This document shows positions 30,284 through 57,990 of a stretch of DNA of 64,000 nt, piece by piece. Every line of letters starts with the position of its first letter. Position 1 is the first letter of the stretch. The stretch spans positions 310,001-374,000 of the forward strand of contig NZ_LVEG02000001.1 of NCBI RefSeq assembly GCF_001614315.2, given 5' to 3'. This DNA is from Halofilum ochraceum. Lineage in GTDB: Bacteria > Pseudomonadota > Gammaproteobacteria > XJ16 > Halofilaceae. A program made the translations under genes and the position numbers. The notes below the pieces were generated by a model. That model did no database searches and was not told the DNA's origin. It saw only the letters and a list, made by a program, of their open reading frames with translations.

Positions 30284-30347
30284 GCCCGCGCTCGACCTGG
30301 GTCTGGAGGCCCGCAATTGATTGCACGCAACCGGTGCGCGTGGTTGT

Positions 30348-30421: not shown

Positions 30422-32563
30422 ATGGCCTTGACCAGGAATAAGAAAGCGCTGCACCTCGTTACGGTGTTTGTCCTTGCCTTGCCGCTGGGCGCCGTCCCCG
30501 CCTCGGCGGCGGACGATGACCTGCTGAGCGGTGACGGGGATGGACAAGGGACTTCGTCCGGTGACGATCTGCTCGGCGGCGACAATGGCGATGCGTCCGG
30601 AAACGATCTGCTCAATGCCGACGATGACGGCGGCGGCTCCGGGGATGACCTGCTCGGGGGCGAAGGCGAGAGCGACGGCGGCGATGGCGGATTGCTCGGC
30701 GATGACGATGGATCCGACGGAGGTGATCTCCCCTCCGGCGATCTGCTCGGCGGCGATGACGACGGAGGCGACGAGGCCGACTCGACGGATACTGCCGAGG
30801 AGGAGGAGGGAGACAAGAGCGCCTACGAGATGCACAAGGCGGCATTCGAGGACGCCGGCAACCGCTACCCCTCGGCCAACGAGTGTGCCACCTGCCATCC
30901 ACGCCAGTACCGGCAATGGTCCGTATCGCAGCATGCCTATGCACAGCTGAGCCCGGTGTATATGGCGATGCAGATGACCATCAACGCCAAGACCTCCGGG
31001 ACCAACGGCGATTTCTGTATCCGCTGCCACAACCAGGTCGGCATGAACCTGGGCGAGTCGGTCTACACCTCCAATCTCGACCGCCATCCGACCTCGCGCG
31101 AGGGCGTCACCTGCGTCGTCTGTCACCGCGTGAAGCAACCCTACGGCAAGGTGTCGGGGCGCCTGCCGCTGGAGGAGGGTGGTCTCACCGCACCGGTGTA
31201 CGGCCCCAGTGGTGGCGAGGAACTCGAGCGGGTGCTGTCGAATCCCGAGACCTACCGGGTGGTGACCGACCCCGAGAAAGCCGGCCGCAAGATCCACGAG
31301 GAAGCGCGGCAGTTCTTCCAGATTACCGAGCCGGACTTCTGCGGGACCTGCCACGACGTCAAGCTGCTCAACGGGTTCCGGCTCGAGGAGGCGTTCTCCG
31401 AATACCAGCGCACGGAAGCGGCGGAGAACGACGTCAGCTGCCAGGACTGCCACATGGGCAAGGAGCAGGGCGTGCCCTCCGGCTACGAGCGCGGTCCGGC
31501 GGCCGTCGTTGGCGGTGAGCCGACAAAGCCGCGGAAACTGACCAACCACTACTTCGCCGGACCGGACTACCCGATCATCCATCCGGGCCTGTTCCCTCAT
31601 AACGTGGAAGCGGCGAAGTTCAAATCCATGCGCCAGTGGCTGAAGTTTGATCACGAGGCGGGCTGGGGCACCGACGAGTTCGAGGAGAGCATTTCGCTAG
31701 ACCGCGAGTTCCCGGATGCCTGGTTCGCGATCGACGACCGCTACGACGCGCGCGAGATCCTCGACGAGCAGTTCGAGCGTCTCGAGTGGGCGCGCCAGGA
31801 GCGCCTGGAAGTACTTCGCAACGGCTTCGAACTGAGCGATATCCAGGTCACCGAGTCTTCGTCGGAGGACGGACTCGACTTCGAGATCGACGTGCGCAAC
31901 CCCACCAACGGTCACGCCGTGCCGACGGGCTTCGATGCGGAGCGCGTGATCTTCCTGCAGGTCGAAGTGCGGGATCAGGACGGCCGGCTGATCTATGTCT
32001 CCGGCGACCGCGACCCCAACGGGGACATCCGCGATTCGCATTCGCTCTATGTCCACGACGGCCGTTTGCCGCTCGACGAGGACCTCTTCAGCCTGCAGAG
32101 CAAGTTCGTGGTGCGCATGGCGCGCGGTGGTGAACGCGAAGAGGTCCTGTCGCTCAACCACTCCGGTTCGCCGCAGCCGTTCATTCGGCCCGAAACCCGG
32201 GCGACCACGATTTACGGTCGGCCGCGCGGTGCGCGTAAGCACAAGATGACGATACCGCCGCTCGGCAAGCGAACGGCCGATTACAGCGTCGCGCCGGAGG
32301 CCCTGAACGGCAACGGCCCGTATACGATCGATGTCGAACTCATCGCGCAGATGGTTCCGGTGAATCTGATCGCGGCGATCCAGGATGTCGGTTTCGATTA
32401 CGGCATGAGCCCGAAAGAGATCGCCGATCGGGTCGTCGAGGGCGCGGAGATCGTTCGTGAGAAGCGCACGACCATCGAGATCGCAGACCCGGAGAAGCCG
32501 ACACAGGCCGAAACCGGGCTGCCTGAAGCCGCAAAGACGGCATCCGCCGACGCGGGCCGGTAG
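30422..32563 (+). CDS. Exported pentaheme cytochrome c with N-terminal acidic LLGGD repeats
   Basis: Secreted cytochrome of 713 aa, start ATG 30422 behind AGGGAAG. Signal peptide residues 1–29 (ending PASA). Residues 31–129 are an acidic Gly/Asp/Glu-rich tract with six copies of a seven-residue motif (DDLLSGD, DDLLGGD, NDLLNAD, DDLLGGE, GGLLGDD, GDLLGGD). Five CXXCH sites follow at Cys155, 199, 231, 307 and 340, the first in a c554-like context (ANECATCHPRQYRQWSVSQHA). The C-terminal part is haem-free and beta-rich, with NPTNGHAVPTG. It is divergent from ccmA and followed by an outer-membrane barrel gene. I know no characterised homologue; a periplasmic or surface electron carrier is inferred. 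Confidence 0.9.
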   Translation: MALTRNKKALHLVTVFVLALPLGAVPASAADDDLLSGDGDGQGTSSGDDLLGGDNGDASGNDLLNADDDGGGSGDDLLGGEGESDGGDGGLLGDDDGSDGGDLPSGDLLGGDDDGGDEADSTDTAEEEEGDKSAYEMHKAAFEDAGNRYPSANECATCHPRQYRQWSVSQHAYAQLSPVYMAMQMTINAKTSGTNGDFCIRCHNQVGMNLGESVYTSNLDRHPTSREGVTCVVCHRVKQPYGKVSGRLPLEEGGLTAPVYGPSGGEELERVLSNPETYRVVTDPEKAGRKIHEEARQFFQITEPDFCGTCHDVKLLNGFRLEEAFSEYQRTEAAENDVSCQDCHMGKEQGVPSGYERGPAAVVGGEPTKPRKLTNHYFAGPDYPIIHPGLFPHNVEAAKFKSMRQWLKFDHEAGWGTDEFEESISLDREFPDAWFAIDDRYDAREILDEQFERLEWARQERLEVLRNGFELSDIQVTESSSEDGLDFEIDVRNPTNGHAVPTGFDAERVIFLQVEVRDQDGRLIYVSGDRDPNGDIRDSHSLYVHDGRLPLDEDLFSLQSKFVVRMARGGEREEVLSLNHSGSPQPFIRPETRATTIYGRPRGARKHKMTIPPLGKRTADYSVAPEALNGNGPYTIDVELIAQMVPVNLIAAIQDVGFDYGMSPKEIADRVVEGAEIVREKRTTIEIADPEKPTQAETGLPEAAKTASADAGR

Positions 32564-32632
32564 GGGCGACCCGCCCGGTCCCGCTGCATCGGCGGACACA
32601 CGAACAAACGAACGGCAGGGAAGGGGAGTCAG

Positions 32633-34051
32633 ATGGCCGACCGCCATTCCCATCACGGGAGGCGTACGATGGCCGCGACCTTCGTCGGTCTCGCGGTGGC
32701 CGGGCTGTATGCCGGTGGACTGTACGCGGCCGGCAGCGCGCTGTCGGAAGAGCCGATCCCGATGGCGACCGAGGAAGAACTGCCCGAGCGCACGGCGCCG
32801 CCGGTGGAGATCGGGCCGCATTTCCTGGGGACCGGCAACCTCCCCCAGGGCATCGAATTGCCGACCGGTGCCGTGTGGAATCCGGCCTTCTGGGTCTACG
32901 GCGATTTCCGCACGGCCCTGAACTACTACGACGACGGAGTCAACGACCCCATCGGCGAGTGGGCGAACCGCCTCGACCTCTACGGCAATCTCCACCTCAG
33001 CGGCACCGAACGCCTGCTCATCGGCATCTCGCCGCTGAACGACGACGGTACTTTCTCCGGGTACACGTTCGAGCCCGACCGTGACGAGGGCACGATCAAC
33101 GAGACGAACTCGGACATCACGCGTTTCTTCTTCGAGGGCGAACTGGTCGAGATATTCCCCCGCCTGGATCCCGGCGATCGCGGCCTGTTCGACATCGGAT
33201 TCGCGATCGGTCGCCAGCCCCTCCTGTTCCAGGAGGGCATCATGATCAACGACAGCGAGGTCGATGGTGTCGGCATCACGCGCGACACCATCATCATCCC
33301 GGGCCTGTCGGTCGATACCCGGGCGACGCTGTTTTTCGGCTGGAACGGCGTTAACCGTGACAACAATGTCGAGGACGACGAGGCGGAACTGCTCGGACTG
33401 TTCGTGGAGGGTGACTGGGGTGCCAGCACCGTGCAGATCGATGCCGCTTACGTGGACAGTGAAAACGCTGCCGGGGTCGATCGTGACAGTTTCCACTTCG
33501 GGGTCGGTTCGACCCAGCGAGTCGCCCTGTTCGGGCGTACCGTGAACACGGCCGTCCGTCTCAACACGTCCGAAGCCCTGGACCGCGAAACGCCGGCCGC
33601 GAGCGACGGCACGCTGCTGTTCGGCGAGTTCAACATCATCCCGCACGGTACCAACGACGTGGTGTATCTGAATGCGTTCTGGGGCGAGGACCGCTACAGC
33701 TCGGCGTTGCGTGACGAGACCGCCGGCGGGCCGCTGGGTCAGACCGGCATCCTTTTCGCGGCGGTGGGCCTCGGCCGCTATGGCGCCGCACTGTCGAACC
33801 AGGCGGACAACGTGGCCGGCGCGTCGATCGGGCGACAGTTCTTCTGGGATGGCGAGCGCAAGCAGGTGATTCTCGAGGCCGGCGGCCGCGCCGGCACGGA
33901 AGACGGCACGCAGGACCAGGCCGCGGTCGGAGCGCGCTACCAGCAGGCACTGGGGCGGCGATTCGTGTTCCGCCTTGACGGTTTCGTTTCCACGCAGGAG
34001 GAAGCCGACGATGGCGCCGGCCTGCGGACCGAGCTGCAGGTGCGTTTCTAG
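32633..34051 (+). CDS. Outer-membrane beta-barrel protein next to the pentaheme cytochrome
   Basis: A 472-aa exported protein: a basic, His-rich start, a hydrophobic signal (FVGLAVAGLYAGGLYAAG), then alternating amphipathic strands with frequent acidic turns, and the terminal sequence LQVRF, whose final Phe is the BAM insertion signal. The ATG follows GGGGAG. No family can be named confidently. Its place directly after a multiheme cytochrome suggests a porin that either insulates a cytochrome across the outer membrane or admits a substrate. Confidence 0.75.
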   Translation: MADRHSHHGRRTMAATFVGLAVAGLYAGGLYAAGSALSEEPIPMATEEELPERTAPPVEIGPHFLGTGNLPQGIELPTGAVWNPAFWVYGDFRTALNYYDDGVNDPIGEWANRLDLYGNLHLSGTERLLIGISPLNDDGTFSGYTFEPDRDEGTINETNSDITRFFFEGELVEIFPRLDPGDRGLFDIGFAIGRQPLLFQEGIMINDSEVDGVGITRDTIIIPGLSVDTRATLFFGWNGVNRDNNVEDDEAELLGLFVEGDWGASTVQIDAAYVDSENAAGVDRDSFHFGVGSTQRVALFGRTVNTAVRLNTSEALDRETPAASDGTLLFGEFNIIPHGTNDVVYLNAFWGEDRYSSALRDETAGGPLGQTGILFAAVGLGRYGAALSNQADNVAGASIGRQFFWDGERKQVILEAGGRAGTEDGTQDQAAVGARYQQALGRRFVFRLDGFVSTQEEADDGAGLRTELQVRF

Positions 34052-34121
34052 GCCGTCTGGTCTTGCGGAATCGGTCCAGGCAACCCGGTGATCCGTGTAC
34101 CTGGGCCGGGGAGGGGCAGTG

Positions 34122-35387
34122 ATGAGCGTGATCGAGATGGCGGGATTGGTGATCCTTGCCGCGGCGGCCACACAGGCGGGCGCGGGGGGTATGGGCGCCA
34201 TCTGGCGCGGCTTTGTCGGCGTCCGCCATGACCGCCGGGACGCGCGCCTGTTCGAAAAGCGTGCCATGGCGCTGCTGGAGGCCGCCGAGGCCGAACGCGA
34301 CCGCGAGACGCTGCGCTGGAACGGGCTGCGCAAGTTCACGATCGCGCACAAGGTAGTCGAGGCGGAGGGCATCTGTTCGTTTTATCTCAAACCGCATGAC
34401 CAGAAGCCGCTGCCTCCCTTCGAGCCCGGCCAGTACCTTACCTTCCAACTGCGCATCCCGGGGCAGACCAAGAACGTGGTGCGCTGCTACTCGCTGTCGG
34501 ACAGCGCACGCCGACGCGATTACTACCGCGTGACGATCAAGAAACTCCCGCCACCGGCGGACCAGCCGGAGGCGCCACCGGGGGTCAGCTCGACCTACTT
34601 CCATGAGCAGCTCGCCGAGGGCGATACCCTCGACGTACGTGCCCCGAGTGGCCACTTCTATCTGGATCAGACGCGCGAGACCCCGGTGGTGCTGATTGCC
34701 GGTGGCGTCGGTCACACGCCGATGGTGTCGATGCTGCAGACCATCTGCGACAGCGGCAGCGAGCGTGAAGTCTGGTTCTTCTATGGCGTACGCCACGGCG
34801 GTGAGCACGCGATGAAGGAGCGTCTCGCCGAACTGGATCGCGCGTACCCGAACGCGCACATCGTTACCTTCTACTCGGATCCGCGCAGCGAGGATCGCGA
34901 GGGGAGCGACTACGCGCACCACGGTCATGTCAGTGTCGACGCAATGAAGGAATACCTCGGGAGCACGAACTACGAGTTCTATCTCTGTGGACCGCCGCCG
35001 ATGATGCGCGTGATCACCGAGGGGCTCGAGGAATGGGGCGTGCCGGATTCCTCGGTGAACTACGAGGCGTTCGGTCCGGCGACGGTTACGAAGACGCCCC
35101 AGTCGCGCGAGGCCCATGCTACGACGACCTCCGGCGTGACGGTGGAGTTTGCCCGCTCGGGCAAGACCTGCACGTGGATCAAGGAGGTGGGCACGATCCT
35201 CGACCTCGCCGAAGCGCAGGGGATCGCGCTGGATTTCGGCTGCCGCGCCGGCAACTGCGGGACCTGCCTCACGGCGATCAAGGAGGGCCAGGTCGAGTAC
35301 CTCGGTGAGCCGGGCGTACCGCCGGAGGAAGGATCGTGCCTGTCCTGCATCGCGGTGCCGAACGGCAAGCTGGTGCTCGACGCATGA
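34122..35387 (+). CDS. Membrane-anchored FNR-type flavoreductase with C-terminal [2Fe-2S] ferredoxin domain
   Basis: A 421-aa oxidoreductase. An N-terminal hydrophobic helix (MSVIEMAGLVILAAAATQAG) tethers it to the inner membrane. The FAD domain has RCYSLS (residues 121–126), the NAD(P) domain has GGVGHTPM (194–201) and CGPPPMM, and a plant-type ferredoxin domain has CRAGNCGTC (Cys374, 379, 382) with a fourth ligand in SCLSC. Domain order matches HCR/oxygenase reductases. It could pass electrons from NAD(P)H to the poly-Fe-S protein encoded two genes downstream. ATG 34122 follows GGGGAGGGG. Confidence 0.88.
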   Translation: MSVIEMAGLVILAAAATQAGAGGMGAIWRGFVGVRHDRRDARLFEKRAMALLEAAEAERDRETLRWNGLRKFTIAHKVVEAEGICSFYLKPHDQKPLPPFEPGQYLTFQLRIPGQTKNVVRCYSLSDSARRRDYYRVTIKKLPPPADQPEAPPGVSSTYFHEQLAEGDTLDVRAPSGHFYLDQTRETPVVLIAGGVGHTPMVSMLQTICDSGSEREVWFFYGVRHGGEHAMKERLAELDRAYPNAHIVTFYSDPRSEDREGSDYAHHGHVSVDAMKEYLGSTNYEFYLCGPPPMMRVITEGLEEWGVPDSSVNYEAFGPATVTKTPQSREAHATTTSGVTVEFARSGKTCTWIKEVGTILDLAEAQGIALDFGCRAGNCGTCLTAIKEGQVEYLGEPGVPPEEGSCLSCIAVPNGKLVLDA

Positions 35388-35433
35388 GCTTGGTACACGC
35401 AGACACGACGAACGACGAGACGGGAGCGACCTC

Positions 35434-36465
35434 ATGGTGTCCGAACGCAGCAAGTCCGCACGGCGCTACGCGCTGCCATTGATCCTCGGCCTCTGGGCCA
35501 TTGCCGGCAGTGCTTCGGCAGTGGAACCGGGCGAGCGGGATCCCGCCCGTGTCGTCGGCCCGCAGGAATGCGCCGAGTGCCACGAAAACGCCACCGCGAT
35601 CTGGCGCAACACGCACCATTTCTCGACCTTCCGCGAGATGCCGCGGAAGAAGGAGGCGATCGAGATCGCGCGGAACATGGGGTTGCGCCGTATCAAGGAG
35701 GACAGTCTCTGCCTCGATTGTCACTTCACGTCGAAGCTCGACGAGGAAGGCAAACCGGAGCCGATCGCCGGGATCTCCTGCGAATCCTGTCACGGCGCCG
35801 GCCAGGGCTACCTCGAGGTGCACTCCGAGTTCTCGGGCAAGGAGGAGGAAGAAGAGACCGAGGCCGAGGAGAAGGCGCGCTGGCAGAAGGCCGAGGAAGG
35901 GGGAATGATCCGCCCGCACATGATGTATACCTGGGCGAAGAACTGCTACAGCTGCCACGTGGTTCCGGAGGAAAAGCTCGTCAACAAGGGCGGTCACCCG
36001 GCCGGCAGTCCATTCGAACTCGTCGCCTGGTCGCAGGGCGAGGTACGCCACAACGTCTGGTACAACGAGGGCGAGTCGAATCCGCCGGCCGACACGGAAC
36101 GCCGGCGCAAGATGTTCATCGTCGGCATGGCCGTTGAACTCGAGAGCGCGTTGCGCGCCGTCGGCAACGCCACGGAAAAGGCCGACTATGCGGTAACGAT
36201 GGCCAAGCGCGCGCAACGCGCACGCAAGCGCTTCGCGCAGGCGGCGCAGCTGGTCGAGGGTGTGCCGGAGATGGGCGAGATCACCAGCATCGCGAAGGAT
36301 GCGCAGCTCAAGCTGAACAACAAGGGCCCACTCACCGAGGCGGCCGACCGCATTGGCGACCTTACGCAGCAGATCGTCGCCGAGTACGACGGTAGCGGCA
36401 TGGGGGGCATCGACCCCGCGCTGCCGGGCGAGGGGGACTGGAAGGGTTCGCCGGAACGCGAGTAG
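35434..36465 (+). CDS. Tetraheme cytochrome c, c554-like
   Basis: Exported cytochrome (343 aa) with signal peptide 1–29 (AGSASA) and four CXXCH sites at Cys46, 93, 116 and 171. The first block (GPQECAECHENATAIWRNTHHFSTF) and the haem spacing resemble the c554 family, which in nitrifiers takes electrons from hydroxylamine oxidoreductase; no such partner is encoded here. A charged Glu-rich insertion (EEEEETEAEEKARW) precedes haem 4, and a haem-free helical C-terminus (~residues 230–320) follows. It precedes the cNMP/Fe-S gene by 18 bp. Confidence 0.88.
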   Translation: MVSERSKSARRYALPLILGLWAIAGSASAVEPGERDPARVVGPQECAECHENATAIWRNTHHFSTFREMPRKKEAIEIARNMGLRRIKEDSLCLDCHFTSKLDEEGKPEPIAGISCESCHGAGQGYLEVHSEFSGKEEEEETEAEEKARWQKAEEGGMIRPHMMYTWAKNCYSCHVVPEEKLVNKGGHPAGSPFELVAWSQGEVRHNVWYNEGESNPPADTERRRKMFIVGMAVELESALRAVGNATEKADYAVTMAKRAQRARKRFAQAAQLVEGVPEMGEITSIAKDAQLKLNNKGPLTEAADRIGDLTQQIVAEYDGSGMGGIDPALPGEGDWKGSPERE

Positions 36466-36483
36466 GCCGGGGGGATTTCTCAT

Positions 36484-38208
36484 ATGGCGGAAAGCACCGC
36501 GATTGCCCGTCCGCAACGCTGGGATCGACCGTTCGGTCCCGACATGACGGACCTCGACGTCGAGCGCGTACTCGAGCAGCCGCTGTTCCGGGACATCGAT
36601 GCGTCGCAGTTCCCGGCCAGCCTGCCGCTGCGCGAGATCGTGCGGAACGACGCGCGGGTGCGCCGGTACGCGCGCGGTGACGTGATCGTGCGCGAGGGCG
36701 ATTACGGCAACTCAATGTTCGTCATCATCGATGGTCGCGTGCAGGTTGTCACCGACGGCACCGATGATGCCGAACTCGGCCGGCGTATCCGCAAGCGCCC
36801 GCGCACGCTGCTGCAGGCGCTGCGTCAGCTTTGGGCCAACGCCGACCAGCCCGAGGTGCGCGATGTCGCCGGCTATTTCCAGCGTCTCAACGACCTGGAT
36901 CTGCGCGGCGAGGCAGACGATGCCAGGATCCAGCTCCGCGACGTCGATGCCTTTATCGATCGGCACGAGACCGTGGCCCTGGACGAAGGCACGGCGTTCG
37001 GCGAGATCGCCGCGCTCGCCCGGTCCTCGCGGACCGCTACCGCCGTCGCCGAGAGTGACGTCGACGTGGTCGAACTGCGTTGGCAGGGCCTGCGCGATAT
37101 CCGCCGGCGCGATGCCGGTTTCCGCGATCATATCGACGGGCTCTACCGTGAGCGCAGTCTCGCGCAGCATCTCCGCGAGGCGCCCCTGTTCGCCCACCTT
37201 GACGACGACGTGCTTGACGAAATCGCACGCCACACGGCCTTCGAGAGCCATGGCACCGGGGAATGGTTCCGGGACTTCAAGCGGGTCAAGGGCGAGGCCG
37301 ATCCGACGCCGACGACCGTGCTCGAACAGGAACCCGTGATCGCCGAGCAGGGGCATTATCTTGACGGCCTGATCATGATCCGGTTCGGTTTCGCGCGCAT
37401 CAGCGAGCGCCTGGACCACGGCCAGCGCACGACGGGCTACGCGGGCCAGAGCGACGTATTCGGGCTCGCGGAGATCGCGCACTGCTGGCGCGAAGGCGGG
37501 GAGCCGTCGTTTGCACGCAGCCTGCGCGCGATCGGGACCGTGGACATCCTGCGCGTGCCGACGTACCTGGTCGAGCAGTACGTGCTGCCGAACGTGCCCG
37601 CCCGTCTGTTGCCGGATCCTCCGGCCGCGGACGTGACGCCGGCCGGCCTCGAGCAGTGCACCGATCTCGGATTGCCGCAGTCGCTCGTGGACTTTTTCGT
37701 CGATGAACGCACGATCAATGGTCGGGCGACGATGCTGATCGATACGGATCGCTGCACCGCGTGTGATGAGTGCGTGCGCGCCTGCGCCGAGGCGCACAAC
37801 AACAATCCGCGCTTCAAGCGCCACGGGCCGATCCACGACGGTGTGCAGGTCACGAATGCCTGCATGCACTGCGCCGACCCGGTCTGTCTGATCGGCTGCC
37901 CGACCGGGGCCATCCACCGCCATGAGTCCGGCCCGGTGGTGATCGATGACGCCACCTGTATCGGTTGCGGCACCTGCGCGAACGCCTGCCCCTACGACAA
38001 CATCTCGATGGTCGAAATCCGCGACGCCGACGGCGAGTTCATCGTCGATGACCAGAGCGGCCAGCCGATCATGAAGGCCACCAAATGTGATCTCTGCCAC
38101 GACCAGCTCGGTGGTCCGGCGTGCGAGCGTGCCTGCCCGCATGACGCGCTGATACGGATCGACATGCACGACCATTTCCGGCTCGCCGAGTGGGTGAACC
38201 GCAAATGA
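36484..38208 (+). CDS. Cyclic-nucleotide-binding-domain protein fused to a four-cluster [4Fe-4S] ferredoxin
   Basis: Cytosolic 574-aa protein. The first cNMP domain (residues ~38–225) has GDVIVREGDYGNSMF and a phosphate cassette FGEIAALARSSRTATAV with the conserved Arg, but is split by a ~60-residue insertion. The second (~240–390) is degenerate. From Cys424 on there are four cysteine sets of the HybA/DmsB type: CTACDECVRAC, CMHCADPVCLIGC, CIGCGTCANAC and CDLCHDQ…CERAC. So a nucleotide-sensing module is fused to an electron wire. It overlaps the downstream b-type cytochrome gene by 4 nt. The paralogue at 52054–54477 carries an extra flavin domain. Confidence 0.9.
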   Translation: MAESTAIARPQRWDRPFGPDMTDLDVERVLEQPLFRDIDASQFPASLPLREIVRNDARVRRYARGDVIVREGDYGNSMFVIIDGRVQVVTDGTDDAELGRRIRKRPRTLLQALRQLWANADQPEVRDVAGYFQRLNDLDLRGEADDARIQLRDVDAFIDRHETVALDEGTAFGEIAALARSSRTATAVAESDVDVVELRWQGLRDIRRRDAGFRDHIDGLYRERSLAQHLREAPLFAHLDDDVLDEIARHTAFESHGTGEWFRDFKRVKGEADPTPTTVLEQEPVIAEQGHYLDGLIMIRFGFARISERLDHGQRTTGYAGQSDVFGLAEIAHCWREGGEPSFARSLRAIGTVDILRVPTYLVEQYVLPNVPARLLPDPPAADVTPAGLEQCTDLGLPQSLVDFFVDERTINGRATMLIDTDRCTACDECVRACAEAHNNNPRFKRHGPIHDGVQVTNACMHCADPVCLIGCPTGAIHRHESGPVVIDDATCIGCGTCANACPYDNISMVEIRDADGEFIVDDQSGQPIMKATKCDLCHDQLGGPACERACPHDALIRIDMHDHFRLAEWVNRK

Positions 38209-41521: not shown

Positions 41522-41532
41522 GCGCCGGGCCT

Positions 41533-41547
41533 GCGGCGTAACGCCGC
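41533..41547. terminator. Small hairpin between convergent decaheme genes
   Basis: GCGGCG-TAA-CGCCGC in the 99-bp gap between two convergent cytochrome genes. No T tract; weak terminator candidate. Confidence 0.3.
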
Positions 41548-41620
41548 CGATCATGCCCGACGTTCACGGATTGTTTCGGGGTTTGGTATGAAGTGCGGCC
41601 GGGTTCCGGTCGCCCTCGAC

Positions 41621-45430: not shown

Positions 45431-45462
45431 TCGTGGTTCTTCCACACCCGCTTGACCGTCCA

Positions 45463-47253: not shown

Positions 47254-49318
47254 CGCTGTCGAGAAAGGGTTTCTGCGGACACTGGACATAGCGCAGGCGT
47301 TCGTCGAAACCGGCCGGCGCAATCCGGTCGGCGCGCATCCGCGGTGGTGCATTGCCGATGCCGGTATCGAGTCTCTCGCTGGCGTTGTGCAGTCCGAGGA
47401 ACGAAATCAGGTCATCCTGCTCGATGCCATCGCCCGAGACGCCGATGCCGCCGACGAGCTCATCGCCCCGATAGATCGGGACGCTGCCCGGGAAGATCTG
47501 GATGCCGCTGCGCACCGTGTCGATCGGAGACCCGACCGCGAAACCGGCACTCAGGCCGCCGACGCCGGTACAGTTCCGCGGCGTGTCGGCACCGATCAGG
47601 CCGGCGGCGAACGCGACGTGCTGGATGATGGCGTTATAGGAGAGATCCAGCTGCAGACCGACCGAGAACGGGCTCCACTCCGTGGGGGCATCGTGACCGC
47701 CGGGTTTGCTGAACGGACCGGGCGGATTGCCGTCGATGCCATCGGGATAGAACGGCCGTGACAGGTTGCCTCCGGAGCGGTCGGCGAATGCGACCGCGCC
47801 GTCCTCGAGCGCGGTGGGCAGGCCGAGGAAATCCTGGGCCGCGTCCACGTATTGACCGATGCGTTCGGCGCGTTTGACCGTCGGCAGAGCCGTGCCCGCG
47901 TCGAGTTTTGCATCGAGGTATTCCGCGTCGGGTACGCCGTTGAGACCGGAAGCCGCATCCGCGCTGGAAAAGAACGCCGCCGTCCGCGCCTTCTGGAGCG
48001 AGACGTCGATGCCGAACACCGGGGCGTCGCGGCCCCGCACGATCCCGAGGACCTCGCCGCGGGTATCGACCACGGAGATCGTGACGCGCGCACGGCTGCC
48101 GAGTGGCCGCCGGATCTGGGCGCGTGCGCGATTGGCCACCGCGAGCGCCTCCGAGAGGATCGTCTCGACCTCATTCGCGGCCAACTCGGCCACCGGGAGG
48201 CTGGCGCCATCCGTGCCGGCGCGTGGCGGAAAACGCGGAGTGTCCGCGTTATCGACCAGTACGAACGCGTCCTGACCGGCGAATGCCGGACGGGTACTGG
48301 ACCGGATGCCCGAATCCGCTTTGGAGAAGGCACTGCCGGTGACCACGCCCGCGGCGGCGCGGTAGTACGCCTGGGCGGGACCGTCGTCGACCAGCTGGCC
48401 GGCGACGCCGCCATCAAGCGTGGCGAACGCGGGGGCATTACGCGGGTCGGTGGCCAGGCCGGAAGGCCCGATCTCCGTGAACCGCAGTGTTTTGCCTTCG
48501 ACCGTGATTCGATCGCCACGCCGATCCGGCGGTGCCGAGAACCCGAAGGCGCCCGCTACGGCGATGGCCTCGTCGGTAATCGCGGCATTGGCGGGGTCGC
48601 CGCCGCCCAGGGATTTCGGGGCCAGACCGTAGATCCCGTCGGCGATGACGCCGATGCCACCGACCACCGTGCCGTTGTGGTACAGCGGTACGCCACCGGG
48701 GTCCGCCGACAGGCCGAGCGGGGAGCGGCGCGGGCCGACCGCATCGCTGCCACTGCCGGATTCGAAGCGCGTAGCGAGGTCGGAACAGGGCAGCTGGCTG
48801 AACTGCACGCCGAACAGAGGGCCCCCGGCCGTCTTGAATTCACCCGGATTGAAATGCGCCTGAACGATCTGGCTCGCGGTTCGGGTAGTGAACGCATTGC
48901 CCTCGGAGGACAGGTACGCGGCCGTCTTCGCCTTGGCGATGGCCGCGAGCGTACCCGGGATGAACTCGATGTCCTCGAGGCCACCATCGACGCCATCGCG
49001 CGACGTGATCGTGACGAAGTCGTCCGCGCCGTTCATGCCGAACAGGGCGAGCACGTTACCGACGCGATCGACCACGGCGATGGTTGCCGGCGCGTTGCGG
49101 GCCTGGGCCTCGGTTACGGCCTGGGCCACGATGTCGCGCGCCTGGCTGGCTTCGAGGCGCGTGGCGGTGTCCTGACACGAGCCGCTGCAGCCGCCCGAGG
49201 ACGCCGAGCCCGTTCCGGCTTCGCCCGACCGTGATCCTCCGCCACAGCCCGTCAGCAAGAGTGCAAACGCGGTCGCCGCGAACAGTCCGACGATGACCCG
49301 CTTACTCGGCCGCGACAT
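47225..49318 (-). CDS. Lipoprotein with two HbpS/GlcG-type haem-binding domains
   Basis: A 697-aa lipoprotein with lipobox LLTGC near residue 25 and a short Ser/Gly/Cys linker. Two DUF336 (GlcG/HbpS-like) domains follow: one around residues 55–300 (ARNAPATIAVVDRVGNVLALF, VVGGIGVIADG) and one around 395–680 (ARVTISVVDTRGEVLGI, LVGGIGVSGDG). HbpS proteins bind or degrade haem or act as redox sensors; GlcG is uncharacterised. A tandem, lipid-anchored form beside multiheme cytochromes is unusual. The gene overlaps the FHA-decaheme gene by 17 nt and the barrel gene by 29 nt. Confidence 0.83.
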   Translation of the reverse strand: MSRPSKRVIVGLFAATAFALLLTGCGGGSRSGEAGTGSASSGGCSGSCQDTATRLEASQARDIVAQAVTEAQARNAPATIAVVDRVGNVLALFGMNGADDFVTITSRDGVDGGLEDIEFIPGTLAAIAKAKTAAYLSSEGNAFTTRTASQIVQAHFNPGEFKTAGGPLFGVQFSQLPCSDLATRFESGSGSDAVGPRRSPLGLSADPGGVPLYHNGTVVGGIGVIADGIYGLAPKSLGGGDPANAAITDEAIAVAGAFGFSAPPDRRGDRITVEGKTLRFTEIGPSGLATDPRNAPAFATLDGGVAGQLVDDGPAQAYYRAAAGVVTGSAFSKADSGIRSSTRPAFAGQDAFVLVDNADTPRFPPRAGTDGASLPVAELAANEVETILSEALAVANRARAQIRRPLGSRARVTISVVDTRGEVLGIVRGRDAPVFGIDVSLQKARTAAFFSSADAASGLNGVPDAEYLDAKLDAGTALPTVKRAERIGQYVDAAQDFLGLPTALEDGAVAFADRSGGNLSRPFYPDGIDGNPPGPFSKPGGHDAPTEWSPFSVGLQLDLSYNAIIQHVAFAAGLIGADTPRNCTGVGGLSAGFAVGSPIDTVRSGIQIFPGSVPIYRGDELVGGIGVSGDGIEQDDLISFLGLHNASERLDTGIGNAPPRMRADRIAPAGFDERLRYVQCPQKPFLDSDDQRVCSGK

Positions 49319-51035
49319 CCCGCGCCCCCATCGTGAATTCGTCGCTGTCGTGGAAGCCGTGGCAGTCGACGCACCGCGATGCCACCCGGGCCTCGGAATG
49401 TTCGTCCCCGTGACATTCGCGGCAGGTGTCCGCGGTCGGCATCAGTACATCGGCGCTCGCCGAGGAGTCTTCGGCGGCGTGGCACCGGGTGCAGCTCATG
49501 GCCGTGTGCGGGGAATGGCTGAACCGGGCTTTGGGATACCACTCGGCGGTCAGTGCGACCGGCGGGATCGACCATCGCGGCGCCTCGCCCGGAGGCGTTT
49601 CCCGTTCGACCTCGTGGCAGGTCTTGCAGGTCCGATATTCGATGACCTCCTCGGCAACTTCGACGGCTTTCCGATCGGCCCATTCCAGGGCTGCCCGGCG
49701 CTCCTCCCGGTCGAGTTCCGCGGAGCCGGGGCGGCTGCGTTGCACGACGGCGGGCGTTCCGCCCCCGGAATCGGCATAGCCGCCGGCGAGTGCGATCCGT
49801 GCGTAATAGTCCTGCAGTATGGGCAGGATCCGGTCCGGTGCCGCGTGCGGCAACTCGCGCCCGGGCTCCGTGGGCTCGAAATTGAGTCGGTGGCAGTCCT
49901 GGCAGTCGCTTTCGAAGCGGATCGGCTGCATGGCCGCACCGCCGGCGTCCGGGCGGTGGCAACTGGCGCACTCGAGGATCCGTTTGCCCCCGGGGCTCTC
50001 GATGCCATCGCTGCCCAGATGGACGTCATGCGGAAAAGCCAGACCATTGTCTTCGCGCAGGTGCTGGTCCATCCGGATCCGGCGCCAATCGAATGCATCT
50101 TTGCCGCCCTGGGCGGGGGATACGATGCGGACGCGGAATTCCGGATGGGTCGCGGCGCCAAAGCCCGATACGGCCTGGATATCCGAGCCAGGCAGCCTCG
50201 TGCCGGGCTTTTTGTGACAGTCGGTACAAAGGGCGGATTCCTTCGCGACCAGGCCCTCGGTCCCGTTGTGTTCGAGGTGGCAGCTGGCGCAGCGCTGCCC
50301 CGCCAGACCGGATACACGCAGCAGATCGGCATCTTCGCCATGGTGCGGCTGGTCGGCATGGCAGGCGATGCAGGCGTCATTCGTCACCCGTTGGAACGGT
50401 TTGCGGTGGCAGGCGCGACACTCCTGGGCGAAAAACCGGTGGGCCCGGCTCATCGGCCCGCTGTCCCAGAGGTGATCGCCCCCGGCCAGCCGCCAGGGCA
50501 TGCCGGCGTCGGCCGCTCCCCGGAACCGCTCCATGTCGATATCCGGCGCGGGCGACTGCTGGATCTGGGCGAAGGGGACGCCCAGACCGAGACCGGCAAC
50601 GACGAGAAACAGTGCCCATGCCCAGCGGCGCTTACCGAGTCCGGCGGCCTTCAGGGAGGTGGGCCCGGCACCCGGCGGATTGCCACGTTCGGCGCGTACC
50701 TCTTCGACCTCGAGTGCGAGCGTGTACCCGCGCGGCGGTGCAACCAGGCGGATCGTCGAGAGCCCGATCGCGATCCGGTCGCCGACCTTGACCACCCCCG
50801 CCTGGACGGTGCGCCCGTTGATCTGGACGCCGCTCGGTGTCCGCGCCTGCAGTGCGAACGTGTCGTCGGATGCCGGCCGCAGGACCGCGTGGCGCAGGGC
50901 GACATGCAGATCGGAGAGGAACAGGTCCTGATCGGTCGCCCGGCCAATGGATAGCGTGTCGGCATCGAGTTCGTGATCGGTGTGCCCGACACCGGCGCCG
51001 GACTTGCGGGTGATCCGCCGGATCAGACAGCGCAT
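49302..51035 (-). CDS. FHA-like domain – TM – decaheme cytochrome c
   Basis: A 577-aa membrane protein. ATG 51035 follows GGAGGGG with 7-nt spacing. Residues ~5–100 form a cytosolic forkhead-associated-like domain (IGRATDQDLFLSDLHVALRH and VQINGRTV), with the GR arginine (Arg32) kept. The usual phosphothreonine-contacting Ser of the VSRRHA box is Ala46. One TM helix spans ~138–155. The periplasmic part has ten CXXCH sites (CRACH at 206, then CIACH, CASCH, CTDCH, CASCH, CQDCH, CKTCH, CTRCH, CRECH, CVDCH). It matches the module A decaheme in architecture with a different cytosolic domain. Confidence 0.88.
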   Translation of the reverse strand: MRCLIRRITRKSGAGVGHTDHELDADTLSIGRATDQDLFLSDLHVALRHAVLRPASDDTFALQARTPSGVQINGRTVQAGVVKVGDRIAIGLSTIRLVAPPRGYTLALEVEEVRAERGNPPGAGPTSLKAAGLGKRRWAWALFLVVAGLGLGVPFAQIQQSPAPDIDMERFRGAADAGMPWRLAGGDHLWDSGPMSRAHRFFAQECRACHRKPFQRVTNDACIACHADQPHHGEDADLLRVSGLAGQRCASCHLEHNGTEGLVAKESALCTDCHKKPGTRLPGSDIQAVSGFGAATHPEFRVRIVSPAQGGKDAFDWRRIRMDQHLREDNGLAFPHDVHLGSDGIESPGGKRILECASCHRPDAGGAAMQPIRFESDCQDCHRLNFEPTEPGRELPHAAPDRILPILQDYYARIALAGGYADSGGGTPAVVQRSRPGSAELDREERRAALEWADRKAVEVAEEVIEYRTCKTCHEVERETPPGEAPRWSIPPVALTAEWYPKARFSHSPHTAMSCTRCHAAEDSSASADVLMPTADTCRECHGDEHSEARVASRCVDCHGFHDSDEFTMGARDVAAE

Positions 51036-51110
51036 CGGGCGACCCCTCCGCAGTGGTGGGGCGCCGGGATGCAACGCCGTGATCGCCTGATCCGTTTCAT
51101 CGTCCGCCCC

Positions 51111-52049
51111 TTACCAGTACGTGAACACGGCGACGATATGGGCGCTCAGCGCCGCCAGCAGGGCGATGGAGAGCGGGACATGGAAGTAGAGCCAGATCTG
51201 GAGCAGCGCCCGGTGCTGGATATCCTGATTCAGTCGCCGCACGATCTGTCGGCGGCGGCCCAGCACGTCCATGAGTTCCCGTATCCGGGCGACCTGCTGG
51301 CCCGGTTGCGCCTCGGCCAGCTGCCCGGCGACAAAACGCATGGTCGACTCCGCCCGCATGATGCGGTCGGCCTCGCGCTGCTTGATCTCGTCCAGATTCG
51401 CCACGAGCGTGCGGTTTTTCTCCTCGAGGAACGCTTCCGCTTTCTGGTCCTCGCGTTCGGCCTTCTTCGGACGGCCGCCACGAAGCTGAGCCACGACGCC
51501 GCCCCCGACGCTCGTGTTGCGCAGCGACCGCAGTACGATCTGATGGGTGGAATCGTCGATCCGGTCGGCGAGTTCCACCGCCTGCTGCTCCAGCGAGCCG
51601 ATCTCCTCGAGCATGGCCTGCGGACCGATGCCGGTACGGTTCGCCGTCATCTGTGACGGGTATCGCCGGTAGGCATAGACGCCGTAGAGACCGCTCAGCA
51701 CGACGGCGATCATGAGCCCGAAAGCGACGGTATGGATATTCCAGCCGAACTCGAATCCCGTATGCAGTGTGGCGATGACCACCAGGGCCACGCCGAGGTA
51801 GACATGTGCTGACAGCCAGCCCCGAACGCTTCCGGCATTCGAGGCGAAGCGTCGTTTGCGGATGCCGTACCAGAGGAGAAGCAGGATGATCGCGGCACCC
51901 AGGCCGCCAAGGCCGTAGCCGACCCAGGTGCCGCCATCCGGACCGCCGATCGGGTCATGCCACGCGTACACCGCGATCGAGCCCGCGGTCAGCGCCAGCG
52001 CGAACTTCAGCCAGCGGAATTCCTTATGCGTAAGGAAGGAATACGCCAT
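51111..52049 (-). CDS. Membrane b-type cytochrome with two HX13H helices (module B)
   Basis: A 312-aa membrane protein with TM helices near residues 14–30, 43–62, 78–100 and 106–125 and a last helix at ~288–310. A long cytoplasmic coiled-coil loop (~135–275, rich in Glu/Lys/Arg/Gln) separates them. His82/His96 and His290/His304 repeat the HX13H pairs of the protein at 38205–39029, which supports two haems b. It lies 4 bp after the flavin/cNMP/Fe-S gene and 75 bp before the FHA-decaheme, the same functional order as module A. Confidence 0.82.
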   Translation of the reverse strand: MAYSFLTHKEFRWLKFALALTAGSIAVYAWHDPIGGPDGGTWVGYGLGGLGAAIILLLLWYGIRKRRFASNAGSVRGWLSAHVYLGVALVVIATLHTGFEFGWNIHTVAFGLMIAVVLSGLYGVYAYRRYPSQMTANRTGIGPQAMLEEIGSLEQQAVELADRIDDSTHQIVLRSLRNTSVGGGVVAQLRGGRPKKAEREDQKAEAFLEEKNRTLVANLDEIKQREADRIMRAESTMRFVAGQLAEAQPGQQVARIRELMDVLGRRRQIVRRLNQDIQHRALLQIWLYFHVPLSIALLAALSAHIVAVFTYW

Positions 52050-52053
52050 CGAT

Positions 52054-54477
52054 TCAGTCGTCCTCGCTGACCATATTGAAAAACGCCTCGGGGCTGATCC
52101 GCATCGCCGCGCCGGTCGGGCAGGCGCGTACGCAGGCGGGTCCGCCGTCGAGGTCCTTGCACATGTCGCACTTGACCGCTTTCTTCCGGTCGCTCTCCTT
52201 TTTCCGCGGTTTCAGCTCGCTGCCGGGCTCCGGTCCGAGGCCGGTCAGCAGCCATGTCCAGAGGCTCGGCTGACGCTTCGTCTCGGTACCCATGCGGATC
52301 ACCCCATAGGGGCAGTTTTTCTCGCAGTTCCCGCAGCCGATACAGGTGTCGTCTATGTAGACCTCGCCATTCGGGTTGCGATGGATCGCGTCCGGCGGAC
52401 ACTCCTTCATGCAGTGCGGGTGCTCGCAGTGTCTGCATGAGGTCGGCACATGGACATTCGCGAAGGTCGGGCCGGCCTCGCGATTGAGGCGGGAAACGCC
52501 GCCGTGGGTGGATGCGCACGCGCGCTCGCAGTAGTCGCAGCGGATACACAGCGATTCGTCGATCAGCAGCACATCCGTGGCTTCGCCAATTCCCTGCTCG
52601 ACGAGGAATGAGATGATGTTGCCGGCCTGGGTCCGGTTCGCCATGTCCATATCCTCGGTCAGGCGCTCCTTGTAGACCTGCTGGACACGACGGCGTACGT
52701 CGGGATGCTGCTCCATCAGCCGTTTGAAGGCATCGCCTTCGAGCCGCACGGTCTCGGTCGCGACGGCCGCGCGTACGGTCGCACTGCGCGGGGAGTCCGA
52801 TACCAGCGCCATCTCGCCCACGTACTGACCGGCGGGCACGTAGGCGAGAACGATTTCGCGGCCGCCGATCTCGCGCGAGATCGTGACCGATCCACGGCGG
52901 ATGAGCTGGAGGCAGTCCCCCGGCTCGCCTTCACGGAAGACCGTGTCGCCGGCGGCGAACTTCTCCACGGTTGCGCTGCCGACGAGTTCCGACAGGTCGT
53001 CGGCGCTGCACCCCGGCGCGATCTGCGACTGGATGGCGCGCAGCAGGAACGATTCCTCGACCACCCGGCGGACGGCTTCGACCGAGTACATCAGCGTGAG
53101 CAGGGAGCGGCGCGAACTCTCGATCACGATACAGTCACGACCGGCGACGACCGTGGCTGAGCGCCGACGCCCGGAAATGAGGCTCATCTCGCCGAAGAAT
53201 TGCCCCTGACCCAGCGGGATCGATGCCCGGGGCGTTTTGGGATCCGCGGGATCACCGGGCTGGATCTCGACTTCGCCCGCGAGGATCGAGTAAATCGAGT
53301 TCGAGTAATCCTTGTAGCGGAAGATGACTTCGCCTTCCGTCGGCGCATGGATATCACTGTCCAGGAGAAACTCGCGCAACTGCAGTTGCGTGATCGGCGC
53401 GAGCATCGGTACCCGTTGCTGGATCATCGCCAGTGTCGCCGGTACATCGTCGCCGCCCGGGATCGCGGCGAATTTCTCCCGCAGCAGGGGCGTGTCCGCG
53501 GGCTCGACCTCACGGCCCTCGATGTACTCGATGACCTCGTAGCCCTGGTTCATCGCCTGCTTGATCAGTGGATAGCCGGCAAGCGCGCCGACGATATATA
53601 GGCCTGAGACGTTCGATTCGTACTCGCTGGTCACCTCGGGGACCGCCGACTGCTCGTCGCTCGGGAAGATGACTCCGCAGGACTCGACAAACGCACGCGG
53701 CGGGATCGCCCCGAGGCGGGCGATCAGGCGATGGACCGGGATCTCCGCCTTGCCGTCTTTGGTGTCGAGCGTGAGTTGGCCGGCATATCCGCTGTCGTCA
53801 TCGAGCGCATCGACGCGATCGACCGTGCTTTCGTAAAAGCACTCGAGGCCGATCCGATCGTCGTCGATCGCATCGAGCACCGCCTGATTGTTGGCGTCTT
53901 TGGCGCGGTTGAATTCGTCGCGCTTGTTGACGATGATGACCCGGTTCTGCCGAGCCAGTGCGAGTGCGTTCTCGATCGCGGCATCCCCCGCACCGACCAC
54001 CACGATGGTCTCGTCGCTGTAGGCCTCGGGATCGTCGAGCTGATACTGGACAAAGGGCAGGTCTTCGCCGGGACGGCCCAGTTTGCGGAGATTGCCCTGT
54101 ACCCCGATCGCCAGCACGACGTGCTCGGCCGCGACCGAAGTGCCATCCGCCAGGGTCAGGGTGAAATCGCCACGCTCGCCGGTGACGCTCTGGACGGTCG
54201 CATTGAAGCGGATGTGGGCCTGGAGTGCATTGACCGCCTGGTCCCAGGCGCTGAGGATCTCCTCGCGTCGGCCGGGCTGGAACGGCATCGGGGCCCGCAA
54301 TGGCAGCACCGCCGGCTCCGCCATCACGTGTTTGCCGCGCTGGTATCGATAGATGGTGTTGGCGCAGTGTGGAGCGCCTTCGAGCAGGACGTGCGAAACA
54401 CCGAGCTCGGCGGCATGACAGGCGGCGCTCAGGCCGGCCGGTCCAGAGCCGACGATGGCGACCCGGTATCGTTCCAT
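52054..54477 (-). CDS. Flavin NAD(P)-oxidoreductase fused to two cNMP-binding domains and a four-cluster [4Fe-4S] ferredoxin
   Basis: An 807-aa cytosolic fusion. Residues ~1–325 are a thioredoxin-reductase-like FAD/NAD(P) enzyme (VGSGPAG at 9–15, VVGAGDAA near 159) without a CXXC active site, so probably an NAD(P)H–ferredoxin-type reductase. Two cNMP domains follow, each with a phosphate cassette (FGEMSLISGRRRSATVV near 430, GEMALVSDSPRSATVRA near 555). Four [4Fe-4S] cysteine sets start near residue 642 (CIRCDYCERAC, CRHCEHPHCMKEC, CIGCGNCEKNC, CDMCKD…CVRAC). It joins in one chain what module A encodes as two proteins. ATG 54477 follows GAGGGGG. Confidence 0.9.
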   Translation of the reverse strand: MERYRVAIVGSGPAGLSAACHAAELGVSHVLLEGAPHCANTIYRYQRGKHVMAEPAVLPLRAPMPFQPGRREEILSAWDQAVNALQAHIRFNATVQSVTGERGDFTLTLADGTSVAAEHVVLAIGVQGNLRKLGRPGEDLPFVQYQLDDPEAYSDETIVVVGAGDAAIENALALARQNRVIIVNKRDEFNRAKDANNQAVLDAIDDDRIGLECFYESTVDRVDALDDDSGYAGQLTLDTKDGKAEIPVHRLIARLGAIPPRAFVESCGVIFPSDEQSAVPEVTSEYESNVSGLYIVGALAGYPLIKQAMNQGYEVIEYIEGREVEPADTPLLREKFAAIPGGDDVPATLAMIQQRVPMLAPITQLQLREFLLDSDIHAPTEGEVIFRYKDYSNSIYSILAGEVEIQPGDPADPKTPRASIPLGQGQFFGEMSLISGRRRSATVVAGRDCIVIESSRRSLLTLMYSVEAVRRVVEESFLLRAIQSQIAPGCSADDLSELVGSATVEKFAAGDTVFREGEPGDCLQLIRRGSVTISREIGGREIVLAYVPAGQYVGEMALVSDSPRSATVRAAVATETVRLEGDAFKRLMEQHPDVRRRVQQVYKERLTEDMDMANRTQAGNIISFLVEQGIGEATDVLLIDESLCIRCDYCERACASTHGGVSRLNREAGPTFANVHVPTSCRHCEHPHCMKECPPDAIHRNPNGEVYIDDTCIGCGNCEKNCPYGVIRMGTETKRQPSLWTWLLTGLGPEPGSELKPRKKESDRKKAVKCDMCKDLDGGPACVRACPTGAAMRISPEAFFNMVSEDD

Positions 54478-54703
54478 TGTTCCCCCTCGAGGCCACACTG
54501 CCCTGGACGATACGGTCCGGCGGGCAGGTGCCACGAACGCAGTCCGGATATCCCTGAGCCCCGGTTGGGGGCCATGTTGCGGCTGCAGTGATCCGGTTGT
54601 TTTGTCTTTCGGGCTGGGAATGCGGCGAAGGAGCCGCTACCCTGCCGACCAGCGCGGTTTCTTTGTGCCGCGTCATATCGAACGGCAAGGGAGTCGCGTG
54701 CCG

Positions 54704-56086
54704 ATGGACGGACACAAACACACTTGTCGATGCCCGCAGCCTAACAAATCCCGCTCACGGAGCAAGATATTTGCCCGGTTGGCCGGCTTTGTACTGCTCT
54801 TCAGCCCAGCGCTGAGCGCCTTTGCGGCGGAGGGCCTGCAGCTGCCGCAGCACAGTGATCCGGATCATCTCGGGGTCGCGACCTGCGCGGGCAGCACCTG
54901 TCACGGCTCCGCGGAGCCGCTCGACGCCGCATCCGTGCTGCAGAATGAATATCTGACGTGGCACCGGCGCGATGCTCACGCACGGGCGTACGAGACCCTG
55001 CGCAGCGAGCGTTCGGCCCGAATCGCGCGGAATCTCGGTCTCGGCGCTGCCTACGAGGCCGATACCTGTCTCGATTGCCACGCCGACAATGTGCCGGATG
55101 AGCGGCGGGGACGGCGTTTCCAGATCGCTGATGGCATCGGCTGCGAGGCATGTCATGGCGGTGCCGAGGACTGGATCCGTTCCCACGTCAGCGGCGAGGC
55201 GTCTCATGCCGACAATCTCGCGCGGGGGATGTATCCCACGGATCGCCCCGAGGCCCGTGCCAACCTCTGCCTGTCCTGCCACTACAGTCATCCCGACACG
55301 CCGATGCGTCATCGCATCATGGCGGCCGGTCATCCCCCGCTGCAGTTCGAACTCGCGACTTTCGGTCAGTTGCAGCCTCCGCATTACCGGATAGACGCGG
55401 ATTATCGCGACCGCAAGACCGTCGCTTCGGCCGCCCGTACCTGGGCGGTCGGGCAGGTGATGGACGCGCGCCGGGTGCTGGGTCTGCTGCGCGATGATCT
55501 GTTACGGGCAGGGCTCTTCCCGGAGCTTTACTATTTTGACTGCAACGCATGCCATCACGATTTCGGCGCCGCGGACTGGGTCAGTCGGCCGGCCGCCAAT
55601 CCCGAGCCGGGCAGTGTCCCGCTGGAGGACGCCTCCCTGCGGATGCTGGGTCACCTGCTGAGCGTAGTTGATGCCGGGCTTGCGCAACGCTGGTCGGATG
55701 GCCTCGATCGTCTTCACGCGGCGACCGGCGAGGGTGCCGGCGCCGTGCGGGCGGCCGCCGATCGACTGCACGCCATCGCCGGGGTGGCGGGTGATCGGAT
55801 CGAAACACAGGGCTTCGCCGGCGACGCCGTCGTGCGGGTCATGGGGCGTATCATCGCGGCGGGGCGCCGCGATGGATTCGGTGACCGGACCTCAGCCGAC
55901 CAGGCCGCGATGGCGCTTGCATCGCTGCTGACCACGGCGCGCGCGGAAGAGCTGCTGGCATCGGCACGGCTGGATCGGCTCGAGAATGCACTGGACCGGA
56001 TCTATGTCAGTCTGGACGATCCGCGCGACTATTCGCCCTGGCGCTATCGCGATGCCCTGGGCGGGTTCGCACGGGCGCTGCCATAA
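54704..56086 (+). CDS. Pentaheme c554-like cytochrome c with one CX4CH site
   Basis: Exported cytochrome of 460 aa with a signal peptide to ~residue 42 (LFSPALSAFAA). Haem sites: an atypical CX4CH (CAGSTCH, Cys61–His67), then CXXCH at Cys122, 147, 189 and 280. The block TWHRRDAHARAYETL and the order of sites resemble c554-family proteins. The C-terminal ~160 residues are helical and haem-free. ATG 54704 lies 10 nt after AAGGGAG; GTG 54698 is an alternative. It is divergent from the flavin/cNMP/Fe-S gene across 226 bp, which holds both promoters but no clear consensus, and is the right-hand end of the redox island. Confidence 0.87.
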   Translation: MDGHKHTCRCPQPNKSRSRSKIFARLAGFVLLFSPALSAFAAEGLQLPQHSDPDHLGVATCAGSTCHGSAEPLDAASVLQNEYLTWHRRDAHARAYETLRSERSARIARNLGLGAAYEADTCLDCHADNVPDERRGRRFQIADGIGCEACHGGAEDWIRSHVSGEASHADNLARGMYPTDRPEARANLCLSCHYSHPDTPMRHRIMAAGHPPLQFELATFGQLQPPHYRIDADYRDRKTVASAARTWAVGQVMDARRVLGLLRDDLLRAGLFPELYYFDCNACHHDFGAADWVSRPAANPEPGSVPLEDASLRMLGHLLSVVDAGLAQRWSDGLDRLHAATGEGAGAVRAAADRLHAIAGVAGDRIETQGFAGDAVVRVMGRIIAAGRRDGFGDRTSADQAAMALASLLTTARAEELLASARLDRLENALDRIYVSLDDPRDYSPWRYRDALGGFARALP

Positions 56087-57986: not shown

Positions 57987-57990
57987 CGCG

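Follow-up and report, generated by a model that had tools for sequence, protein, structure and literature searches.

Two independently inherited multihaem modules of Halofilum ochraceum as putative cyclic-nucleotide-responsive routes of electron export

Electron transfer across the bacterial envelope has mostly been studied in metal-reducing anaerobes and iron oxidisers. Among the described systems, those closest to the one considered here are MtrCAB, MtoAB and PioAB, the Geobacter Ext cluster (extHIJKLMNOPQS), in which ExtO is a Rieske protein and ExtH a rhodanese (PMC5877670), and the PCC3 and Uet porin-multihaem sets (PMC10734462). A gene set to be compared with these is present in the gammaproteobacterium Halofilum ochraceum, in a window of 64,000 nucleotides (the whole stretch analysed; assembly GCF_001614315.2, contig NZ_LVEG02000001.1, positions 310,001 to 374,000) from a genome of 3.64 Mb in 35 contigs. 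Fourteen genes are found there between an ABC (ATP-binding cassette) transporter and ccm cytochrome-maturation genes, a border that the initial annotation of the window did not mention. They form two modules of seven genes each: module A (30422-41521; A1 to A7) and module B (41621-56086; X, P, H and B4 to B7). The chances are about even, in our judgement, that these are two parallel, independently inherited modules for electron export, driven by NAD(P)H and responsive to cyclic nucleotides, and that in module B the chain ends at the secreted decahaem protein X, which would reduce a substrate.

The genes had been read as a single 25-kb island; this reading was dropped, since the two modules are found separately in other genomes. 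Module A is intact, with its seven genes in the same order, in four genomes (G540, G809, G816 and G818), where the only match to B5 is the Fe-S part of their own A5, i.e. they are without module B; across them A1 is 57-64% identical, A5 52% and the syntenic A2 50-52%. Module-A genes were not seen in the module-B loci examined and, among the genomes examined, both modules occur together only in the window genome. As a probe of 274 genomes of the same class A7 retrieved only itself, even though module A is found elsewhere; A1 is the better probe. With X as the query, a scan of genomes returned 411 related stretches, of which the best 80 (L007-L086), the named loci, belong to sphingomonads, Caulobacterales, Halieaceae, Alcanivoracaceae, Woeseiaceae and others. 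In the 46 loci with full flanks, on which gene presence was counted, P and H are always found (46/46), B4 in 43, B7 in 39, B5 in 34 and B6 in 33. Most gammaproteobacterial loci have the order B5-B6-B7-H-P-X-B4; in most alphaproteobacterial ones B4-H-P-X is accompanied by B7-B6-B5 on the opposite strand. Within one family X occurs in 53 of 149 genomes; the family is presumably Sphingomonadaceae, as the X genes of its members lie closest to those of named sphingomonad loci. In Sphingobium and Sphingopyxis module B lies on replicons of about 0.4-1.3 Mb. In a sample of 398 Pseudomonadota genomes, B5 accompanies X in all 11 genomes that have X, and in G474, G608 and G655 both are present though the genes are far apart. 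In two genomes, G300 and G414, B5 and B6 form a single reading frame of about 1120 codons (L149:49-3405, L152:3052-6423; no X shown), which suggests that the two proteins work together. Pairwise distances of the seven module-B proteins correlate at 0.82-0.94, a range that shared species history alone could explain.

The redox inventory of the initial annotation was borne out. The six cytochromes, the only frames with several CXXCH motifs within the 64 kb, contain 43 such motifs by count (5+4+10+10+10+4) and one CX4CH (CAGSTCH), located in the protein of frame 54455-56086, B4; the lone CXXCH of A5 had rightly been excluded, being part of its ferredoxin cysteines. The motifs do not arise by chance, as indicated by their conservation among aligned relatives: each of the ten haem motifs of X is at least 99% conserved (83 sequences), all ten of B7 are kept in 62/62 sequences, and the CX4CH of B4 in 71/71 homologues. 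Sixteen cluster cysteines each in A5 and B5 account for the eight [4Fe-4S] clusters predicted; in B5 none of them varies among 52 aligned sequences, and across relatives module B as a whole keeps its haem and cluster residues essentially unchanged. Pfam matches agree with the [2Fe-2S] flavoreductase and the second flavin/NAD(P) domain, and the two b-type membrane proteins show five to six hydrophobic segments, with histidine pairs that can be aligned between them. In B6, H82/H96 and H290/H304 are invariant (55 sequences), a pattern expected of a protein with two haems b stacked across the membrane. Both barrels were also retained, P by a model with 18 strands and A2 by sequence features only. 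What had been missed are four cyclic nucleotide monophosphate (cNMP)-binding domains, two in B5 and two in A5, as well as the FHA domain of B7, the LVIVD repeats of X and the HbpS-like lipoprotein H.

From this gene content we infer the single transfer steps, their outward direction, the gating and the substrate. Cytosolic NAD(P)H would reduce a flavin domain, A3 in module A and the N-terminal domain of B5 in module B; electrons would pass to the four [4Fe-4S] clusters of the cNMP-domain protein (A5, B5), cross the inner membrane via the di-haem b protein (A6, B6), reach the inner-membrane-anchored decahaem cytochrome (A7, B7) and be relayed by the c554-type periplasmic cytochrome (A4, B4). 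Module A would end at A1 with the barrel A2 and module B at X with the porin P and the lipoprotein H, where X would reduce a small, probably anionic substrate admitted by P. The chain would be turned on or off by a cyclic nucleotide on A5 or B5 and perhaps by a phosphoprotein on the B7 FHA domain. A5 and B5 share 42% identity in their Fe-S parts, while the flavin-entry proteins, A3 and the B5 domain, are unrelated. The N-terminal Pyr_redox domain of B5 is related to YpdA/thioredoxin reductase; no conserved cysteine is found outside the Fe-S clusters, and basic residues of the NADP site are kept (R204 in 51/52 sequences, with K204 in the window protein, and K212 in 52/52), suggesting NADPH oxidation with single-electron transfer to the Fe-S clusters. 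A7 and B7 both cross the membrane once, and their decahaem parts lie beyond it. Family PF13435, with a gathering score of 20.8 bits, is matched by A4 (61.5 bits, E=1.5e-16), B4 (41.9 bits) and A1 (39.5 bits); A4 also matches Nitrosomonas c554 (1bvb, E=2.4e-8), and A1 shows a local match of about 94 residues to the pentahaem c552 of T. tepidum (5ze8, E=1e-8).

The barrel P bears on where the module-B chain would end. Its model is closest, by Foldseek and VIA, to AlgE and OprD-type channels, with Z scores of about 21-25 (about 25 for AlgE) and a root-mean-square deviation of about 3, and the protein has many invariant Arg and Lys residues. The MtrB barrel is larger, with 26 strands; MtrB was not among the structural matches listed for P, an absence to which no weight is given. 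On these grounds, and with a single model of moderate confidence, we favour for P the role of a channel through which a small substrate, probably an anion, would reach X, over that of a cytochrome sheath. Of the continuous path from cytosol to cell surface proposed in the initial annotation, a possible path from NAD(P)H to the outer membrane is therefore kept and the surface reach is not, given the 18 strands and the substrate-channel matches of P. A PDB sequence search with X gave no match.

Control by cyclic nucleotides is suggested by the binding pockets and by the neighbours of module B. In the first cNMP domain of B5 the Gly, Glu and Arg of the phosphate cassette are present in 52/52 sequences, as is the Arg of the second domain, and in the full-flank loci a CHASE2-adenylate cyclase is found in 24%, a CpdA-like phosphoesterase in 33%, PP2C in 22% and FHA proteins in 28%; such control of module B is plausible. 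The fuller proposal, a cyclic-nucleotide-gated trans-envelope conduit that would dump cytosolic reductant at the outer membrane upon a signal, in roughly a third of one aerobic soil and water family, and possibly the first allosterically switched one, is put forward as a tentative idea that is more probably wrong than right. CRP-like sites in the window are no more frequent than chance, and no sigma-70-like promoters were found at 54300-54900. A Pycsar-type defence system was also considered and rejected: PADLOC matches fall on the cNMP domains of A5 and B5, and no TIR, effector or cyclase domain is present in the island.

Several observations weigh against cyclic-nucleotide-responsive export ending at X. 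As neighbours, cyclases and phosphatases are limited to about a quarter of the loci, the second cNMP domain of A5 looks degenerate, and a partial module A, in G628, is without A5. The phosphothreonine-binding residues of the B7 FHA domain are partly kept (R45 in 39/62 sequences), and the usual Ser is not conserved. Four more of the sampled genomes have B5, three of them with no X found; in G415 the contig ends after P, so that X has probably been cut off. The haem part of X (780 residues) gave an unusable AlphaFold model (pLDDT 42). X has at least 13 conserved histidines outside the motifs; since these could supply bis-His ligation to all ten haems, none of the haems stands out as catalytic.

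The coordinates of all features are collected in the table below; several annotated gene starts are probably too early.

Features of the two modules and their borders (window coordinates; pLDDT and pTM, AlphaFold model confidence scores)
Feature	Position	Strand	Predicted product	Basis
ccm border	29609-30316, back to 23178-24443		ccmA-like gene, back to TPR gene	identities read from translations
A1	30422..32563	+	pentahaem cytochrome, 5 CXXCH, signal peptide, acidic DDLLGG repeats, C-terminal domain possibly Ig-like
A2	32633..34051	+	predicted outer-membrane beta-barrel	C-terminal aromatic residue
A3	34122..35387 (frame opens at 34095)	+	membrane-anchored NAD(P)H flavoreductase with [2Fe-2S]	FAD_binding_6, NAD_binding_1, Fer2; N-terminal hydrophobic segment
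A4	35434..36465 (start inferred)	+	tetrahaem c554-type periplasmic cytochrome, 4 CXXCH
A5	36484..38208	+	one clear and one degenerate cNMP-binding domain, four [4Fe-4S]	PF00027, Fer4 families
A6	38190..39029	+	b-type cytochrome, probably two haems b	hydrophobic segments; histidine pairs align with B6
A7	39026..41521	+	decahaem cytochrome, 10 CXXCH, one N-terminal membrane span, cytosolic 10-Cys domain
X	41621..45463	-	secreted decahaem protein, C-terminal LVIVD repeats, beta-propeller predicted	PF08309 E=7e-17
P	45463..47352	-	18-strand outer-membrane barrel, AlgE/OprD-like	AlphaFold2 pLDDT 70, pTM 0.69
H	47225..49318	-	lipoprotein, two HbpS-like domains	PF03928 E=1.8e-21; lipobox LTGC at residue 22
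B7	49302..51074	-	cytosolic FHA domain, one membrane span, periplasmic decahaem domain	PF00498, 10 CXXCH
B6	51111..52049	-	b-type cytochrome, two H-x13-H pairs
B5	52054..54534 (likely start 54477)	-	FAD/NAD(P) domain, two cNMP-binding domains, four [4Fe-4S]	Pyr_redox_3, PF00027 x2, Fer4
B4	54704..56086 (start inferred, open frame from 54455)	+	pentahaem c554-type cytochrome, 4 CXXCH + 1 CX4CH
ABC transporter	56158-59471		branched-chain/urea-type ABC transporter, far border	identity read from translations

At its start (39026-39310) A7 has some 85 residues, ten of them cysteines, that presumably form a cytosolic domain; this domain is mostly kept in G540 and absent from G628. Acidic tandem motifs (DDLLGG, SILGG) are found in the linkers of A1 and A7 (30500-30800 and 40470-40950), and G540 has a different but similar repeat in both its A1 and its A7 (L120). 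Around module B, in Sphingobium herbicidovorans (L109:1-10677), a CHASE2 protein, a two-partner-secretion transporter and a very large predicted protein adjoin the genes; a CcmF-like gene borders them in G635 (L126:56-4879), as in the window. A record titled Klebsiella pneumoniae (L068, a metagenome bin) also carries module B; its label is probably wrong.

A sister species (G001) has the same flanking genes, ccm and ABC transporter, joined, and the whole island is missing except for a 205-bp remnant of the 3' end of X between them (G001:C30, L124:10114-10434). The remnant is 87% identical to X and the flanks 84-89%, indicating that at least X was present in the common ancestor and then lost there, and is thus dispensable; that the window genome alone acquired module B recently is unlikely, given this flank-like identity. 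Module A may either have been lost in G001 too or have been added later in the lineage of the window. A gene pair resembling NAD-linked formate dehydrogenase is found close to the island (59699-64000), and the sister species keeps the first gene of this pair without the island; another such pair lies directly beside module A in G628 (L123:3437-8982).

Other explanations can be given for the same genes. If X or A1 were threaded through, or docked on, the barrel, the result would be a surface porin-cytochrome conduit similar to MtrCAB, Pcc or Uet, with minerals, humics, electrodes or cells as acceptors, which we regard as unlikely. Multihaem cytochromes, a barrel, a lipoprotein and a secreted decahaem/LVIVD protein are all at hand, the Uet set combines a barrel with an undecahaem cytochrome and NHL-repeat proteins (PMC10734462), and A1 resembles the pentahaem c552, a family tied to an extracellular cytochrome nanowire in a paper on cable bacteria (PMC11976967). 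However, no MtrA/DmsE, MtrC or MtrB family matched above its cut-off, P with its 18 strands and substrate-channel matches is small for sheathing a decahaem protein, and most named carriers are aerobes for which mineral respiration is not known. A soluble-oxyanion reductase like Geobacter Ext, in which P admits selenite, tellurite or a similar anion and X reduces it, mainly for detoxification or redox balancing, appears slightly less likely again. The match of X to ExtM is weak but significant (NF040943, 72.7 bits, E=1.9e-20), the porin-like ExtI is implicated in selenite and tellurite reduction (PMC5877670), and P is a barrel of the specific-channel type rich in invariant Arg and Lys; yet the score of X is far below the ExtM cut-off of 800, shared CXXCH spacing may account for part of it, no match at the ExtKL level was obtained, and no Rieske or rhodanese protein is found in the island.

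The same parts could also run backwards, with X or A1 oxidising an external donor and electrons flowing inwards to NAD(P)H or to respiration, for which two haem-copper oxidases are present in the genome. This is improbable, as reduction of NAD(P)+ from common external donors is uphill, RuBisCO has no match in the window genome and the named carriers are mainly organotrophic aerobes; the oxidases together with the RuBisCO result make an aerobic heterotroph plausible. Least probable is a redox sensor, in which the flavin, Fe-S, cNMP and FHA chain reports the redox state of the envelope to the cytosol instead of carrying bulk electron flow: the cNMP and FHA domains and the PP2C and cyclase neighbours are signalling parts, but more than 20 haems, a porin and a lipoprotein would be costly for this purpose, and the chain carries no fused kinase, cyclase or output domain.

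Module B is carried by culturable aerobes, such as Sphingobium, Novosphingobium, Brevundimonas, Alcanivoracaceae and Halieaceae, and is annotated piecemeal or as hypothetical in those records examined. If electron export from NAD(P)H is true, many ordinary aerobes would have an unrecognised redox outlet in the envelope; if gating by cyclic nucleotides is also true, electron export would be under second-messenger control.

Judged by its predicted parts, the set works like a trans-envelope electron-transfer system, yet it fails the Mtr and Ext family features that were tested. The only curated families matched above cut-off are generic cytochrome and domain families, and a description of the gene set was not found in the open-access literature; to this extent the claim that it has no named counterpart stands, while module B, with its 411 related stretches, is common. 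The earlier statement that no terminal reductase of a known type is present was also supported. Identities with MtrCAB, Nrf, octahaem, ExtM and ExtKL proteins were rejected, being below cut-offs or partial: the best DmsE score was 27.7 bits (cut-off 192), OmcA/MtrC 13.2 (209), octahaem TIGR04315 22 (375), NrfA-type 14 (692) and the ExtKL pentahaem family NF040886 29.2 (250), the last reflecting a weak likeness of A1. Neither barrel matches any Pfam family at E<=0.1, so there is no MtrB/PioB match, and A2 has no match in NCBIfam either.

With MtrCAB, MtoAB and PioAB the set shares an inner-membrane cytochrome, periplasmic multihaem cytochromes and an outer-membrane barrel; differently from them, the predicted entry is from NAD(P)H rather than quinol, and P is 18-stranded in its model. 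The Ext cluster likewise unites a porin, several multihaem cytochromes and a b-type membrane protein, whereas here flavin/NAD(P), Fe-S and cNMP domains would feed the chain and X has LVIVD repeats. PCC3 and Uet are also little-studied porin-multihaem sets of environmental Proteobacteria, and Uet too comes with NHL-repeat proteins; haem numbers and partners differ, and the available part of their description mentions no flavin, Fe-S or cNMP input (PMC10734462). By description, the Uet set of Tenderiales has the undecahaem UetJ and the barrel UetC, and X has ten haems and LVIVD repeats. A1 has five CXXCH like the c552 of T. tepidum and the PHC of cable bacteria, but its linker of acidic repeats is long, and its operon includes a barrel and a flavoreductase. 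The pentahaem PHC family, to which T. tepidum c552, ExtKL and GSU2801 belong, unites five haems and an Ig-like domain in one fold; by its match over 94 residues A1 is a candidate member. A4 and B4 share PF13435 with Nitrosomonas c554; unlike in that system, the island has no hydroxylamine oxidoreductase, and B4 possesses an extra, invariant CX4CH.

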